Shown piece after piece: positions 51,226-59,128 of a stretch of 64,000 bases of DNA. This stretch comes from Natronosalvus vescus. GTDB lineage: Archaea > Halobacteriota > Halobacteria > Halobacteriales > Natrialbaceae. The number at the start of each line of letters is the position of its first letter. The stretch's first letter is position 1. The translations under genes and the position numbers were made by a program. The stretch is from assembly GCF_023973145.1 (NCBI RefSeq), contig NZ_CP099546.1:1860001-1924000 (forward strand), written 5' to 3'. Under the pieces are notes generated by a model. That model had not been told where the DNA came from, did not search any database, and worked only from the letters and a program-made list of their open reading frames with translations.

Positions 51226-51314
51226 CGGAAGGGGTGGGATTCGAACGCCACGAGGCCATACTGGCCGCCACGTGTCGAAGACGACGTGGTGCTCTGCCGC
51301 TGAGCGACCCTTCC
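51226..51314 (-). tRNA. degenerate tRNA-like sequence (possible tRNA pseudogene)
   Basis: 89 nt. The acceptor stem (GGAAGGG/CCCTTCC) is perfect, and the D arm (GCTCAGCGGCAGAGC) is normal. The anticodon arm is not: CCACG and CGTGG enclose 12 bases (TCGTCTTCGACA), which themselves can pair as an inner TCG-CGA stem, so no 7-base loop or clear anticodon exists. A GGCC/GGCC variable arm and a T arm GTGGcGTTCGAATCCCAC with one bulged C follow. Could be a pseudogene, an intron-like variant, or an unusual tRNA-like RNA. Confidence 0.55.
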
Positions 51315-51554
51315 GTATCCCACTCGAGGGGCCACCGCCTGATTGTAATCGAGCAGCTACCCCGGTGTATGTCGGAGATACTGGCTGTAAGCGTGGGCTA
51401 CACGCGATGGAGGATGTCGTTCACTCGAGCGGTTATGTCTCCCTGCGAATCCACCTTCCGTGGCCGACGACCCGACAAGCCCTTGTGACATCCCGGACGC
51501 TGCACCGCGAGCGACACTCCGCAGCCTTTAGGACGACGCCCGCCGGTGACTCGA

Positions 51555-53459
51555 GTGGTGCATCCAGACCGGATCTTCGAGGCGTTCCCCGCGCCGAGTT
51601 ACCGAGGGAACCAGGAACAGGCCCTTCGGGACATTCGCGACGCCTTCCAGGCAGGAAACGACGTCGTCTTGGTACGCGCGCCGACGGGTAGTGGCAAGTC
51701 CCTGCTGGCGCGCGCCGTCGCGGGCTGTGCCCGGACGGTCGACGAAGCCGAGCCGAGCGAGGCGACCGGTGCCTACTACACGACCCCGCAGGTCTCCCAG
51801 CTGGACGACGTGGCCGGCGACGACCTCCTCCAGGATCTCAACATCATTCGGGGCAAGTCGAACTACACCTGCATCCTCCCCGGCGAACTCGACACGCCGG
51901 TCAACCAGGCCCCCTGCGTTCGCGAGCGGGGCTACGACTGTTCGGTACAACACCGCTGTCCGTACTTCTCGGATCGAGCCATCGCCTCGAACCGCTCGAT
52001 CGCGGCGATGACGCTCGCCTATTTCATGCAGACAGCTGGCAGCGAGGTGTTTCGCAAGCGCGACGTCGTCGTCATCGACGAAGCCCACGGCCTCTCCGAG
52101 TGGGCGGAGATGTACGCGACCATCCAGCTCGGCCCGCGAACGGTGCCGTTCTGGGACGACCTGCGCGTCCCCGAAGTCGATTCCGTCGAACGAGCCGCCC
52201 GCTACGCTGAAGCCCTGGCGCAGCGGTGTACCAGCCGTAAAGACGACCTCCTGGCGCAGGAGACGCTCACCCCTGGCGACGTCCGCGAGCGTGACCGCCT
52301 CCAGGAACTCATCGGCGAACTCGAGTTCTTCGTGAAGGACTACCGGGATCCGGAGAGTCCGACGACGTGGCTGGTCGATCAGGGCGACGCCGATGGGGGT
52401 GGCGGAGTGGGCTCGAGTGGGAGCAATAATTCGGACGACGGCGGGGACGGCGAACCGCAGGGCGGCCCGCTCACGATCAAACCGATGGATCCCGAGCGCT
52501 ACCTCCGCTACACCGTCTGGGATCGGGGCAACAAGTTCGCGCTGCTGTCGGCGACCATCCTCAACAAGGACGCCTTCTGTCGCCACGTCGGCCTCGAGCC
52601 CTCCCGGGTCGCCCTGGTTGACGTCGGCCATACGTTCCCCGTCGAGAACCGGCCGCTGTACGACGTCACGCAGGGAAAGATGACCTACGAACACCGCGAG
52701 GAAACCCTCCCGAAGATCGCCCGGACGATCGTCCGGATCATGCAGAACCACCCCGACGAGAAAGGGCTGATCCACGCCCACTCGTACGCGATTCAGGACG
52801 AACTCGAGTCGCTGCTCACTGACTTCGGGGTCGGCGACCGGGTTCGCTCCCACAGCCGGGACGACCGGGATGCCGACCTCGAGGCCTGGAAGGCCAGTTC
52901 GGATCCGGACGTCTTCCTCTCGGTGAAGATGGAGGAGGCCCTCGACCTGAAGGGCGACCTCTGTCGCTGGCAGGTGCTGTGTAAGGCCCCGTTCCTGAAC
53001 ACGAGCGACTCCCGGGTAGCCCACCGACTCGAGCAGGGCCAGTGGGCGTGGTACTACCGGGCGGCCCTGCGGACGGTGATCCAGGCCTGCGGCCGGGTCA
53101 TCCGGGCACCCGACGATTACGGCTCGACGTACATCGCTGACTCGAGTTTGCTCGACCTGTTCGAGCGCGCTCGAACTGATATGCCCGACTGGTTCGCCGC
53201 CCAGGTCGACCGGCTCGAGGAACCCGATCTGCCTGCGTTCGAGCCACGGGCGGCCTCTGACTGTCACGCTCGATCGAGATCCGACGGCGATGGCAGGGGG
53301 TCGAGTGGGAACGACGGAAAAAGCGACACCTCGAGCACTGACGCTGGTACCGCCTACACCCGCACTCGGGACACCGGCCGCACGAACTCGGGGTCGAGCC
53401 GGGGCCGACGCTCACGATCACGTAGCCCGCTCGCCGACGTCTGGGACACCGACGGCTAG
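51555..53459 (+). CDS. XPD/DinG-type Fe-S helicase (superfamily 2, Rad3 branch)
   Basis: About 634 residues. Walker A is APTGSGKS (42-49), the DEAH box is at 175-178 (VVVIDEAHGL), and four cysteines C106, C121, C129 and C135 match the 4Fe-4S domain of XPD/DinG. Motif VI-like LRTVIQACGRVIR is near the end, followed by a Ser/Arg/Gly/Asp-rich tail of about 80 residues; a Gly/Asp insert lies near 275-300. A TATA-like cctttagg near 51526 suggests the GTG at 51555 or 51558; a GTG at 51546 is also in frame. Role: DNA repair or R-loop/fork handling. Confidence 0.9.
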   Translation: MVHPDRIFEAFPAPSYRGNQEQALRDIRDAFQAGNDVVLVRAPTGSGKSLLARAVAGCARTVDEAEPSEATGAYYTTPQVSQLDDVAGDDLLQDLNIIRGKSNYTCILPGELDTPVNQAPCVRERGYDCSVQHRCPYFSDRAIASNRSIAAMTLAYFMQTAGSEVFRKRDVVVIDEAHGLSEWAEMYATIQLGPRTVPFWDDLRVPEVDSVERAARYAEALAQRCTSRKDDLLAQETLTPGDVRERDRLQELIGELEFFVKDYRDPESPTTWLVDQGDADGGGGVGSSGSNNSDDGGDGEPQGGPLTIKPMDPERYLRYTVWDRGNKFALLSATILNKDAFCRHVGLEPSRVALVDVGHTFPVENRPLYDVTQGKMTYEHREETLPKIARTIVRIMQNHPDEKGLIHAHSYAIQDELESLLTDFGVGDRVRSHSRDDRDADLEAWKASSDPDVFLSVKMEEALDLKGDLCRWQVLCKAPFLNTSDSRVAHRLEQGQWAWYYRAALRTVIQACGRVIRAPDDYGSTYIADSSLLDLFERARTDMPDWFAAQVDRLEEPDLPAFEPRAASDCHARSRSDGDGRGSSGNDGKSDTSSTDAGTAYTRTRDTGRTNSGSSRGRRSRSRSPLADVWDTDG

Positions 53460-53732: not shown

Positions 53733-55049
53733 TCACCTTACGCGAGCGTCCACCACCACGTGTTCGACGCCCGCGCTGTGGGATTTGACGCGTCGCGTCT
53801 CGAGCACCTCGAGACTCCGCCCAACCCGCTCGACGGCGGCCTCGAGCCGACCGATCGGTCGCTCCCACAGCTCCGCCTCGGGCGTCGCCTCGTGATAGTG
53901 GATCACCCCGCCGGGCTCGAGCGCCTCGAGGGCCGCGGGGAGAAAGTCGACGGCCTCGTCGGATCTCGCGCCGTGGCCCTCGTCGTCGACGCCATCGGCG
54001 ACGCCGTAGTAGCCCATGACGACCCGGTCGGCGGTGACGTCCGCCGCCAGATCGCGACAGTCGCTGTGGTAGGCGTCGACCTGTCTCGAGACCTCGTTGG
54101 CCATCGCGTTCTCGAGCAGGTAGCGAAACGCCGTCGGGTTCAGTTCGGTCGCGGTCACCCCTGCTCCCGCCCGCGCCATCGGGAGCGTGAAGTAGCCGAC
54201 GCCGGCGAACATGTCGAAGACGCGTTCGTCGGGCTCTACGACCGTCGCCATCCGTCGACGCTCGGCCTGGTTCCCCGGCGAGAACATCACCCGTGTCGGG
54301 TCGAGGGCGTAGTGCGTGCCGTCCTCGACGTGCACCGTTTCGGTGTCCCTCGAGCCCGCGAGCAGACGCGTCCGGGGTTCGCGGTAGGTGCCGCTCTCCG
54401 CCTCGTTCGCGATTCCGTCGTCGGCCAGCACGGTCTCGGCCTCGCCGTGCAACTCGAGCAAGGCTTCAGCGACCTCGGTTTCGTCGTGGCACTCCGGAGG
54501 CAGCCGAACGAGGATCACCGAGCCGACGACGGCCCACGACCCCGGTGCCGTCTCGAGGTCGGCGTCGCTCCACCCGCGCTCGCGGAGGTGGTCGGTGAGG
54601 TCGCGGGTACGATAGTCGGGGTCGACCTGACGGATTACCTCGAGGACGGCCGTGTCGGCGGGTGGCTCGAGCACCGGCAGCGCGACCGTTTCGGGGCCGT
54701 ACTCCCGCACCCGGCGGTCGTCGTCGTAGACGCCCTCGGCTTGCAGGGATTCGATCGCGGTCTCGGATCGTGACTTCTCGACGACGACGGCCAGGGGGTG
54801 TAGGTTCGACTCGAGGGTTGGGTCGCTGGAGTCTGTGTGCTGGGTCGGGACGGCTTGGCTCGAGTTCGTGTCCTGATTCAGGTTCTCCGGGCTCGAGTCG
54901 GCGTCCCGGTTCGAATCGCCATCGCTCTGCGATTCCCTATCTTCCTTCGCTACAAAACCTGTAGCTTCAACTTCAGAATCCGTAGTAACTTCACTATCCG
55001 TACCGTTGGACTCGTTCTCGCCTCGAGCCCCCTCGTCTTCCTCACGCAT
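53733..55049 (-). CDS. Trm5/Taw2-family tRNA-modifying enzyme
   Basis: 438 residues from the ATG at 55049, overlapping the end of the NMD3 gene by eight bases. The first ~80 residues are low-complexity Asp/Ser/Glu/Asn. A SAM-binding domain follows: FDMFAGVGYFTLPMARAGAG, TELNPTAFRYLLENAMANEV, DRVVMGYYGVAD and PGGVIHYHEATP. The last motif suits Taw2 (aminocarboxypropyl transfer to the wyosine base of tRNA-Phe, position 37) rather than the methyltransferase Trm5; I think Taw2 more likely. About 20 residues (around GVDDEGHGARSDE) are inserted before the final motif. Confidence 0.8.
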   Translation of the reverse strand: MREEDEGARGENESNGTDSEVTTDSEVEATGFVAKEDRESQSDGDSNRDADSSPENLNQDTNSSQAVPTQHTDSSDPTLESNLHPLAVVVEKSRSETAIESLQAEGVYDDDRRVREYGPETVALPVLEPPADTAVLEVIRQVDPDYRTRDLTDHLRERGWSDADLETAPGSWAVVGSVILVRLPPECHDETEVAEALLELHGEAETVLADDGIANEAESGTYREPRTRLLAGSRDTETVHVEDGTHYALDPTRVMFSPGNQAERRRMATVVEPDERVFDMFAGVGYFTLPMARAGAGVTATELNPTAFRYLLENAMANEVSRQVDAYHSDCRDLAADVTADRVVMGYYGVADGVDDEGHGARSDEAVDFLPAALEALEPGGVIHYHEATPEAELWERPIGRLEAAVERVGRSLEVLETRRVKSHSAGVEHVVVDARVR

Positions 55050-56169
55050 CGTTCTCCGGGAGGACGTGGAGGCCGGCGCGACTCTTGAGGGTGGGAACCG
55101 TCTCAGTGTCGGGATCGACGTAGTCCGGTCGAGCAATTGTCTTCGCCTGGAAGGTTTCGGGATCGAGCACCTGGATCGAGCGCTCGTCCTCGACGGTGAC
55201 GACGGTCGTCTCGACGGCGTCGTCGTGCTCGCCGAGTTTGCGCGCATCGGGAGCGTTCCCCTCTTCGTAGCTGGCTTCGTAGCGCTCGCCGGTCGTGAGC
55301 CGAATACCCTTGAGGTTGCCGTGGGCGCTACTGACGAGGACGGGCCCGCCGTCGTCGTACGCGAGATCGATCACGTCGCCGGGGACGTACGGGGGGAGTC
55401 GGACGGCGAACGTGACGCGGTAGACGCCGTTGCCGTCTTCGTCCTCGGTGACGAGCGTTTCGGCGTCGTTCACGGTGCCGCCGAACTCCTCGACCATCTT
55501 GTTCGCGATCTTCTTGCCGATCTTGTTGGTCGAGACCCGCATGTTGAGGCCGTCGTCGGTCTCGGTCGTCTCGGTGATGAAGGCGTTGCGGTCGCCCGTC
55601 GCCTCCATGTCGGCGACGATGTCCTCGGCGATCACCTTCGCGCGTTCGATCTCTTCGGTCGTGGGGGTTCGATCCTCGGCGCGGATCTGGACGATGCTGG
55701 CGTAGTAGTCGCCGGCGATCCGGCCACACCGGGTACAGGTCTGGCGGGCGATCTTTACGGGTACCATCACCTGTTCTTCGACGGGTGTGCCACGGACGAT
55801 GCCGGTGAAATAACTGTGCATCCGTACCGTATTCGGGCCGACTTCCTCGGGTTCGACCTGCCAGGCGACGTCGTCGACGTCGACGTGGACGGCGAGCGCC
55901 TCGCTCACCTCCTCGATGGCGACGTCGGTGTAATCCTGGGCACCGACGTCGACCCAGCGGCGACCCCGGTGGACGGCCCCACACTGGGCGCAGACGCGGA
56001 CGTCGATCCGGTCTGGCGCGTCGATGAACTCGAAATCGTCGAAGTAACAGCTATCACAGAGGTCGACCTCGGCGCTCGGGCGCAACGGGTCGACGGCAGC
56101 GTCGTCGTCCTCGCGTCGATCCGGGACTGGATCGCCACAGCGAGGACAGAACGCACGCGAATCGGTCAT
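55042..56169 (-). CDS. NMD3-related protein
   Basis: 375 residues. Zinc sites C8/C11 with C38/C41 (FCPRCG, LCDSCY), then VCAQCGAVHRG and QTCTRCGRIAGDYY. The archaeal NMD3 core with YFTGIVRGTPVEEQVMVPVK and NKIGKKIANKMVEEFGG is clear. In eukaryotes Nmd3 is the adaptor for 60S export; in archaea it likely binds the 50S subunit with IF-6, also encoded here. Overlaps the Taw2-like gene. Confidence 0.93.
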   Translation of the reverse strand: MTDSRAFCPRCGDPVPDRREDDDAAVDPLRPSAEVDLCDSCYFDDFEFIDAPDRIDVRVCAQCGAVHRGRRWVDVGAQDYTDVAIEEVSEALAVHVDVDDVAWQVEPEEVGPNTVRMHSYFTGIVRGTPVEEQVMVPVKIARQTCTRCGRIAGDYYASIVQIRAEDRTPTTEEIERAKVIAEDIVADMEATGDRNAFITETTETDDGLNMRVSTNKIGKKIANKMVEEFGGTVNDAETLVTEDEDGNGVYRVTFAVRLPPYVPGDVIDLAYDDGGPVLVSSAHGNLKGIRLTTGERYEASYEEGNAPDARKLGEHDDAVETTVVTVEDERSIQVLDPETFQAKTIARPDYVDPDTETVPTLKSRAGLHVLPENDA

Positions 56170-58243: not shown

Positions 58244-59128
58244 ATGGACTGGAAACCGGACTGGGGACTTCGATTTCGGATGTTCCTGACGATGTTTCTG
58301 CTGTTCGCCCTCTACATCGTGTTCGCGGGGGTGCTCACCGCCTATCTCACTGGCGGGGCGAATCTGCTCGTCTTCGCGATGCTCTTTGGTGGAATGTCGT
58401 TCGTTCAGTACTACTTCAGCGACACGCTGACGCTCAAGACGATGGGCGCGAAGAAGGTCTCCCCTCAGGAGTATCCGCAGCTTCACAGTTCGGTCGAACG
58501 CCTCTCCCAGCAGGCTGATCTCCCGAAACCGAAAGTCGCGGTCATCGATTCGAAGGTGCCGAACGCGTTCGCAACGGGCCGGAACCAGAAAAACGCCGCC
58601 GTCGCCGTCACCACGGGGCTGATGGGAAAACTCTCTCGCGAGGAACTCGACGGTGTGATCGCCCACGAACTCGCCCACGTCAAAAACCGGGACATGATGG
58701 TGATGACCATCGCCTCGTTCCTCTCGACGGTCGCGTTCATGATCGTCCGCTGGGGCGCGTTATTCGGCGGTCGCGGCCGCGGCGGACGGGGTGGTGGCGT
58801 CGTCGTCGCCATCCTCGTCTCGCTGGTCGTCTGGATCATCAGCTATCTCCTCATTCGGGCGCTCTCGCGGTACCGGGAGTTCGCCGCCGACCGAGGTGCT
58901 GCAGCGATTACCGGGAACCCCGCCGCCCTCGCCTCGGCGCTCATGACCATCTCGGGGGAGGTGGACAAGATTCCGGACAAAGATCTGCGCGAGGAGGCCG
59001 AGATGAACGCGTTCTTCATCATCCCGCTGAAGTCGGGCGTCGTCGGTCGCCTGTTCTCGACCCATCCACCGACCGAGCGCCGCGTCGAGCAGTTGCGGGA
59101 ACTCGAGCGGTCGATGGAAATGGTCTGA
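58244..59128 (+). CDS. htpX: HtpX-type M48 membrane zinc protease
   Basis: 294 residues. Two N-terminal helices (about 12-33, 40-56), then HELAH (141-145) with the following NRD, and the third zinc ligand in SRYREFAADRGAA; a glycine-arginine loop (GGRGRGGRGGG) precedes two further helices. The end THPPTERRVEQLRELE is standard. A membrane quality-control protease for misfolded membrane proteins. The pspAB gene follows 83 bases later, as is usual in haloarchaea. Confidence 0.96.
   Translation: MDWKPDWGLRFRMFLTMFLLFALYIVFAGVLTAYLTGGANLLVFAMLFGGMSFVQYYFSDTLTLKTMGAKKVSPQEYPQLHSSVERLSQQADLPKPKVAVIDSKVPNAFATGRNQKNAAVAVTTGLMGKLSREELDGVIAHELAHVKNRDMMVMTIASFLSTVAFMIVRWGALFGGRGRGGRGGGVVVAILVSLVVWIISYLLIRALSRYREFAADRGAAAITGNPAALASALMTISGEVDKIPDKDLREEAEMNAFFIIPLKSGVVGRLFSTHPPTERRVEQLRELERSMEMV

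Follow-up and report, generated by a model that had tools for sequence, protein, structure and literature searches.

An anticodon-less tRNA-like RNA family of haloarchaea, possibly a seryl carrier for FemX-like surface ligases

The 64,000-nucleotide stretch of the Natronosalvus vescus genome analysed here (the window; contig NZ_CP099546.1, positions 1,860,001 to 1,924,000) carries on its minus strand an 89-nt tRNA-like RNA gene with its 5' end at position 51314 and its 3' end at 51226. The gene belongs to a conserved family of non-decoding, tRNA-shaped RNA genes of Halobacteriales, found in about half of the genomes examined, and we hold it nearly certain that the RNA is functional and does not decode. 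Its task probably lies outside protein synthesis, as a carrier of an amino acid or of another load. The best explanation at hand, held with somewhat less than even confidence, is that it would be exempt from translation and would carry an amino acid, probably serine, for ligases acting on surface polymers. The family is a previously unnamed tRNA-like non-coding RNA; no earlier description of it, nor of an archaeal FemAB/tRNA link, was found in the literature searched, a scope outside which most subscription papers fall.

The RNA of the window folds with a minimum free energy of -40.3 kcal/mol (z = -3.0), and none of 200 dinucleotide shuffles folded equally well. The computed fold reproduces what the original prediction had read from the letters of 51226-51314, namely perfect acceptor and D arms, an extended hairpin at the anticodon-arm position, a variable arm of class-II-like type, and a bulged C in the T stem. 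Fold and alignment agree on a 7-bp acceptor stem of GGAAGGG (51308..51314) and CCCUUCC (51227..51233), whose penultimate pair is G2-C71 and whose pair 3-70 is A-U; discriminator G73 follows at 51226, and CCA is not encoded. The D arm (GCUC-AGCGGCA-GAGC, 51291..51305) keeps A14, G15, and G18G19. In the anticodon position stands a 9-bp hairpin (51268..51289) with a UUC triloop and no anticodon loop; it contains one single-base bulge, a C, and no bulge-helix-bulge. The variable arm, GGCCA-GUA-UGGCC (51254..51266), is separated by UC from the T arm, GUGG[C]G-UUCGAAU-CCCAC (51234..51251), with its bulged C at 51247. The window copy has U8 and a UUCGAAU T loop of the normal type, and the elbow expected of a canonical tRNA (U8, A14, G18G19, and a UUCRANY T loop) is intact in the family, 1 of its 134 distinct members having a D loop without A14 (GATGGAA).

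Standard searches overlook this gene. ARAGORN, which the original prediction had proposed as a check, and Rfam at its gathering cut-off did not call the window RNA and reported only tRNA-Gly(CCC) and tRNA-Pro(UGG) in the window; the family covariance model R1, in turn, matches it at 94.2 bits. Its best weak Rfam match, tRNA-Sec (RF01852), was rejected at 19.5 bits against a cut-off of 47. A tmRNA was likewise rejected: ARAGORN finds none in the window, no tag frame is present, and the pair at 3-70 is A-U rather than G3:U70. The N. vescus genome has 43 tRNA genes by Rfam, and the acceptor stem of the window RNA was not found in any of this set.

Comparative evidence for the fold comes from 38 diverse members, in which 95.3% of the cells of the named structure are paired. 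Covariance, another comparison proposed at the outset, was pronounced: 70 cells show changes on both sides of a pair versus 23.8 in shuffles, none of 500 shuffles reached 70, and pairing fell to 37-54% when partners were slid as a control. The anticodon-position hairpin is the most variable part of the molecule and has both-side changes in 8 of its 9 pairs; its loop sequences differ widely within families. The fold is under selection, and the hairpin is held by compensatory changes. The acceptor stem does not vary among the 38 aligned members, an invariance that is partly search selection, most of these members having been found via the acceptor sequence; when a covariance model was run without demanding the acceptor, the inspected loci above about 54 bits almost all shared the same stem. 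The earlier suggestions of an explanation other than decay, and of a possible function for this tRNA-like molecule, are thus borne out by a fold kept across many genera with compensatory changes.

A 5-bp/7-nt anticodon arm cannot be formed by 133 of the 134 distinct members, the window copy included. It is possible in L093, there with U33, and its congener L123 cannot form it. Run on 36 loci, ARAGORN called the element in 13, variously as Gln, Gly, Lys, Arg, Cys, Glu, Val, or undetermined, and no anticodon shared among these orthologs was found. A standard anticodon exposed by another folding, which would have spoken against the original prediction, was looked for and not found. The RNA is without a usable anticodon and cannot read the genetic code. 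Equally fixed is the alteration of the T stem, whose 5' side has six bases instead of five in all 134 distinct members (GUGG[C]G in 77, GCG[U]GG in 54, GUG[U]GG in 2, and GCG[C]GG in 1).

The census of the family relies on an exact pattern that makes no demand on the discriminator and overlooks variants. It matched 186 of 392 Halobacteriales genomes and 45 of 95 genera, contradicting the alternative that conservation would be lacking in near relatives; a reversed control pattern had no match in the same 392 genomes. In a phylum-wide draw the pattern occurred in 24 of 294 genomes and in none of the 241 phylum genomes outside Halobacteriales. By blastn, 54 of 100 relatives had a match, three of them (G065, G085, G092) over only about 30 bases. 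An exact pattern on both RNA ends retrieved 87 stretches, mostly from Natrialbaceae (Natrinema, Natronorubrum, Natronococcus, Halopiger, Natrialba, and others), and also reached Haloferax, Haladaptatus, Halorussus, Halorientalis, Halegenticoccus, Halogranum, Halobium, Halorubellus, and Halomicrococcus; one stretch, from Falkowbacteria (L084), was dropped since it looks like a bacterial tRNA matched by chance. With model R1, 363 of the 392 genomes gave a match at E <= 0.001, a tally that was not used because inspected hits below about 54 bits were ordinary tRNA-Ser or similar; the tRNAs of N. vescus itself score up to 39.7 bits with this model. Conservation rules out a chance origin of the feature. 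Several entire genera lack the RNA, which is therefore dispensable or was repeatedly lost.

The RNA appears to be transcribed from a promoter-like element placed as in tRNA genes. In the Natrialbaceae-type set, the motif CGATTACAAATACG lies at -38 to -25; the window copy has CGATTACAATCA at about -37 to -26 (51340..51351, minus strand). A TATA-like A+T peak at -30 to -27 is common to this set, to the other members, and to the 43 N. vescus tRNA genes, and its placement fits a transcription start at or just before the first base of the RNA. Downstream of many copies outside Natrialbaceae (L053, L077, L111, L209, L219, L220, and others) a sequence like GCGAGGAACGGACGTGACGAG recurs, which may be a terminator or an extragenic repeat.

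Two forms of the RNA exist: the two-hairpin form of the window (type N), which has the variable arm, and a single-hairpin form (type S), in which the U-bulge members L212 and L219 were placed by synteny. Some genomes carry both forms, and others carry two type N copies. The 87-stretch scan demanded G73, so discriminators were counted only in members found otherwise; G73 was present in all 65 such type N members, and type S had 8 G and 13 A. In 95 of 99 comparisons the type N arm (often N-GGC-loop-GCC-UC) is nearer to the tRNA-Ser than to the tRNA-Leu arms of its own genome, the margin being small for the window copy (0.53 versus 0.47). According to sections of a review (PMC9976931), serine identity resides mainly in the variable arm and is independent of the anticodon, and G73 is a strong element for archaeal seryl-tRNA synthetase (SerRS) and a barrier to leucyl-tRNA synthetase in Haloferax volcanii. 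The long variable arm and G73 characteristic of SerRS substrates are both found in the two-hairpin form, and type N carries what we predict to be an anticodon-independent serine identity set.

These features suggest a route by which the RNA could serve a surface ligase. Transcript ends would be trimmed by RNase P and tRNase Z, and CCA would then be added. The ordinary SerRS would charge the two-hairpin RNA with serine through the variable arm and G73, ignoring the anticodon. The bulged T stem would bar the charged RNA from elongation factor 1A (EF-1A), as T-stem features let the cell-wall tRNA-Gly of Staphylococcus aureus and tRNA-Sec avoid EF-Tu, and the missing anticodon would keep it off codons. 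Because both properties would exclude it from translation, the amino acid would be reserved for a FemX/FemA-like ligase, which could attach it to a glycan, peptide, or lipid of the cell surface. That the RNA is charged, kept out of translation, and partnered with a ligase is what we infer; for type N the seryl-carrier mechanism is tentative, and the full picture of a haloarchaeal tRNA class without an anticodon, made a seryl carrier by SerRS, barred from translation by its T stem, and feeding FemX-like surface ligases, is rather unlikely to hold in every part.

The link to FemX-like ligases starts from gene proximity. Of 24 genomes with a type N RNA, 16 have a PF13480 gene no farther than 25 kb from it, where 1.3 would be expected, although these cases are not independent events; by family the counts are 10/11 in f17, 2/2 in f7, 2/2 in f4, 2/7 in f1, and 0/2 in f5. 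As a control, 2 of the 43 tRNA genes of N. vescus have a PF13480 gene within the same distance. In G002 and G007, a second type N copy is found 223-305 bp from a 344-codon FemX-like gene. A comparison of the two genomes shows matches for the FemX-like gene and for the RNA together with roughly 70-90 bp of flank at either end; the surroundings differ save for two matches of about 30 bases. The paired gene product is assigned to PF13480 by Pfam, and a PDB profile search gives FemA/FemX-type chains. Of five proteins compared with curated families, PF13480 was above cut-off in all and PF02388 (FemAB) in one, and the TIGR03019 hits were all below cut-off. An AlphaFold2 model of the paired protein (predicted local distance difference test 85, predicted template modelling score 0.85) resembled, in the first 22 VIA matches, FemA (Z 25.2), FemX (about 24-25), the aminoacyl-tRNA-dependent peptide synthases Sbb17/Sba18 (23), and MprF-type proteins (about 16-18), with other tandem GNATs following at Z of about 16 and lower; the first 23 Foldseek matches were aminoacyl-tRNA-dependent or MprF-type ligases. 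The protein is thus predicted to fold as a tandem GNAT of the FemX type.

As given in sections of a review (PMC4052509), G2-C71 is essential for the FemX of W. viridescens, and the window RNA has this pair. Within the taxonomic family, 1 of 83 genomes carrying the two-hairpin RNA lacks a FemX-like homolog, versus 6 of the 14 without this RNA (counted by eye; Fisher p 2e-5), a co-occurrence that stems from two genera and does not count as independent evidence. Gene families common to eight glycan regions were not used for the link, seven of the eight having been chosen for PF13480.

Several observations weigh against a seryl carrier that feeds FemX-like ligases. The window RNA lacks the D arm and the anticodon of a tRNA-Ser, its 4-bp D stem and 7-nt loop being unlike those of all four tRNA-Ser of its genome. 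SerRS does not explain the invariant acceptor stem, given that acceptors vary among the enzyme's own tRNAs, and the serine identity set is absent from the single-hairpin form. In N. vescus, 919 kb separate the RNA from the closest PF13480 gene. Of the 125 genomes of the taxonomic family, 116 have FemX-like genes, and some of these lack the RNA. In G007, no listed RNA is near a third close copy of the paired gene (G007:975954), and no FemX-like gene adjoins the second RNA copy of G006. Outside Natrialbaceae, the closeness of the RNA to PF13480 genes may reflect shared residence in surface-glycan regions. Transcription, charging, and binding of the RNA are all predictions.

The strongest competing explanation is a regulatory or scaffold RNA that stays uncharged: its tRNA-like body would provide exact ends, stability, and binding to proteins that handle tRNAs, with the variable hairpin or a partner protein doing the work. 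We regard this as a serious possibility, a little behind the aminoacyl carrier for the family at large, and as the better guess for type S, which has G or A at position 73 and no aminoacylation identity set. Patchy presence among relatives, and hence dispensability, would suit a regulator, as would an apical loop motif, UGCCAGAA, common to Haloarcula-like copies. Elsewhere, however, loops vary so widely within families that they show no conserved antisense target, conservation is highest in the acceptor end and the elbow, and the strict G73 of the two-hairpin form would be left unexplained. The UGCCAGAA motif sits in the anticodon-position hairpin of the f4 copies (e.g., G079:C14:97014-97114), which we infer to be Haloarcula-like by genus; loops are free in other copies.

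A t-element-like processing signal, or an element at a transcript end, at which RNase P or tRNase Z would cut to mature a transcript next to it (for example the sdh mRNA), is improbable. Sections of PMC4326828 describe a tRNA-like element of H. volcanii that precedes 5S rRNA and is cut by tRNase Z, and type S copies stand just behind sdhA on the same strand. In Natrialbaceae-type loci, however, the upstream gene is divergent, so that processing would have no transcript from upstream to act on; Rfam detected no rRNA in any part of the window, which leaves the RNA away from any 5S gene there; and the RNA has a promoter-like element of its own.

Four further readings are each very improbable. Retention solely as an attachment site for integrating elements could draw on 29-base partial 3' copies near the RNA in G017 and G043, but such use would not maintain compensatory hairpin pairs, the 3' 20-mer occurs once in the N. 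vescus genome at <=2 mismatches, and neither viral contigs (exact pattern) nor phages (blastn) gave a match. Those partial copies (G017:C1:495697-495725 and G043:C17:52262-52290) lie about 100-270 bp downstream of an intact RNA and resemble traces of integration at tRNA genes. A tRNA pseudogene in decay, one option of the original prediction, would account for the failure of ordinary tRNA finders to report the window RNA; conservation across families, compensatory changes, a fixed T-stem bulge, and the promoter-like element leave it unsupported. The other option, a decoding tRNA whose anticodon emerges after splicing of an odd intron, draws some colour from the arm of L093, but fares no better in the light of the 133 members without such an arm, the congener L123 among them, of the discordant ARAGORN isotypes, of a hairpin without bulge-helix-bulge, and of the 43 other tRNA genes in the genome; no consistent reading yields an anticodon. 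A Ro60-partnering Y RNA of the YrlA kind, with its stalk in the anticodon position, shares the overall shape but is scarcely credible, the RNA being far commoner than TROVE (Ro60) genes, which occur in 9 of 100 relatives and not in the N. vescus genome.

The aminoacyl-carrier reading has partial parallels in known systems. Non-decoding tRNA-shaped RNAs are known mainly from bacteria, eukaryotes, and plant viruses, and in the tRNA-like domain of tmRNA, in mascRNA/menRNA, and in bacterial YrlA the acceptor, D, and T parts are kept and the anticodon arm is replaced. Unlike these, the window RNA has no tag frame, no G3:U70, no longer host RNA as far as seen, and no Ro60 in its own genome. In S. 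aureus, as described in sections of PMC4052509 and PMC4810233, tRNA-Gly isoacceptors for peptidoglycan bridges supply FemX/FemA/FemB and bind EF-Tu weakly through T-stem changes. Ligase supply and a T-stem alteration that keeps off the elongation factor would, as proposed here, be common to both, but the S. aureus tRNA-Gly have an anticodon, whereas the window RNA lacks one, its T stem is bulged, and its charging is predicted. According to sections of PMC9976931, tRNA-Sec is serylated by SerRS, and its T and acceptor features exclude the ordinary elongation factor. It resembles the window RNA in its long variable arm and G73; the window RNA differs in its lack of a UCA anticodon, its 7-bp acceptor stem, and its 4-bp D stem.

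In sections of PMC4326828 and PMC7714728, the t-elements of H. volcanii (Hoelzle et al. 2008, 2012) appear as haloarchaeal tRNA-like elements, as the window RNA is. The one characterised there is a processing signal before 5S rRNA, whereas the window RNA stands alone as a gene and has a promoter-like element of its own. These t-elements are the nearest precedent, compared here through the papers that cite them. Hoelzle et al. are reported to have listed further predicted elements in 2012, which might include members of the RNA family.

If the seryl carrier is real, it would be the first known case of a natural tRNA entirely released from decoding, and archaea would have a first described system of tRNA-dependent surface aminoacylation, both subject to the wider literature; a charged RNA of this kind would be a natural orthogonal amino-acid carrier. 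The family also allows a direct test of which tRNA parts synthetases, the elongation factor, and non-ribosomal ligases require, and it places an anticodon-free archaeal tRNA gene in cultivable, genetically tractable hosts (Haloferax species, in the single-hairpin form). For annotation, about half of the haloarchaeal genomes searched contain a gene that a standard tRNA finder overlooks or tags with an arbitrary isotype.

The two forms differ in their neighbourhoods. Type S mostly follows sdhA immediately and in the same orientation (20 of the 55 loci whose neighbours were tested, three of the 20 being second fetches of the same place), an arrangement seen in several families (L210-L230 and L240-L246; in Haloferax, L075, L089, L098, L106, L132, and L134), and a 76-codon gene of helix-turn-helix-like character is often next after the RNA. 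Type N in Natrialbaceae adjoins a divergent helicase gene in 45 of 81 loci, including the window, where this gene occupies 51546..53459 on the plus strand; we take its product to be DinG-like, a name read from its sequence rather than obtained by domain search. Outside Natrialbaceae, type N resides in surface-glycan gene regions, as judged from gene names read from sequence, again with no domain search. The single plasmid record with a copy, pHOS100 of Halorientalis sp. IM1011, has a two-hairpin RNA (L238, record 58771-58860) among glycosyltransferase genes, 600 bp before the replication gene orc1/cdc6.

Model searches also returned a possible divergent member, L218 (G155:C1:3077147-3077231, minus strand), with the acceptor GAAAGGG/CCCUUUC and an unbulged T stem; the gene before it presumably encodes a UDP-sulfoquinovose synthase. 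Another model hit, L224, is an ordinary-looking tRNA. In the window, two minus-strand genes near the RNA (53733-55247 and 55042-56169), which are also near it in other Natrialbaceae, presumably encode a Trm5/TYW2-type tRNA methyltransferase and NMD3, respectively.
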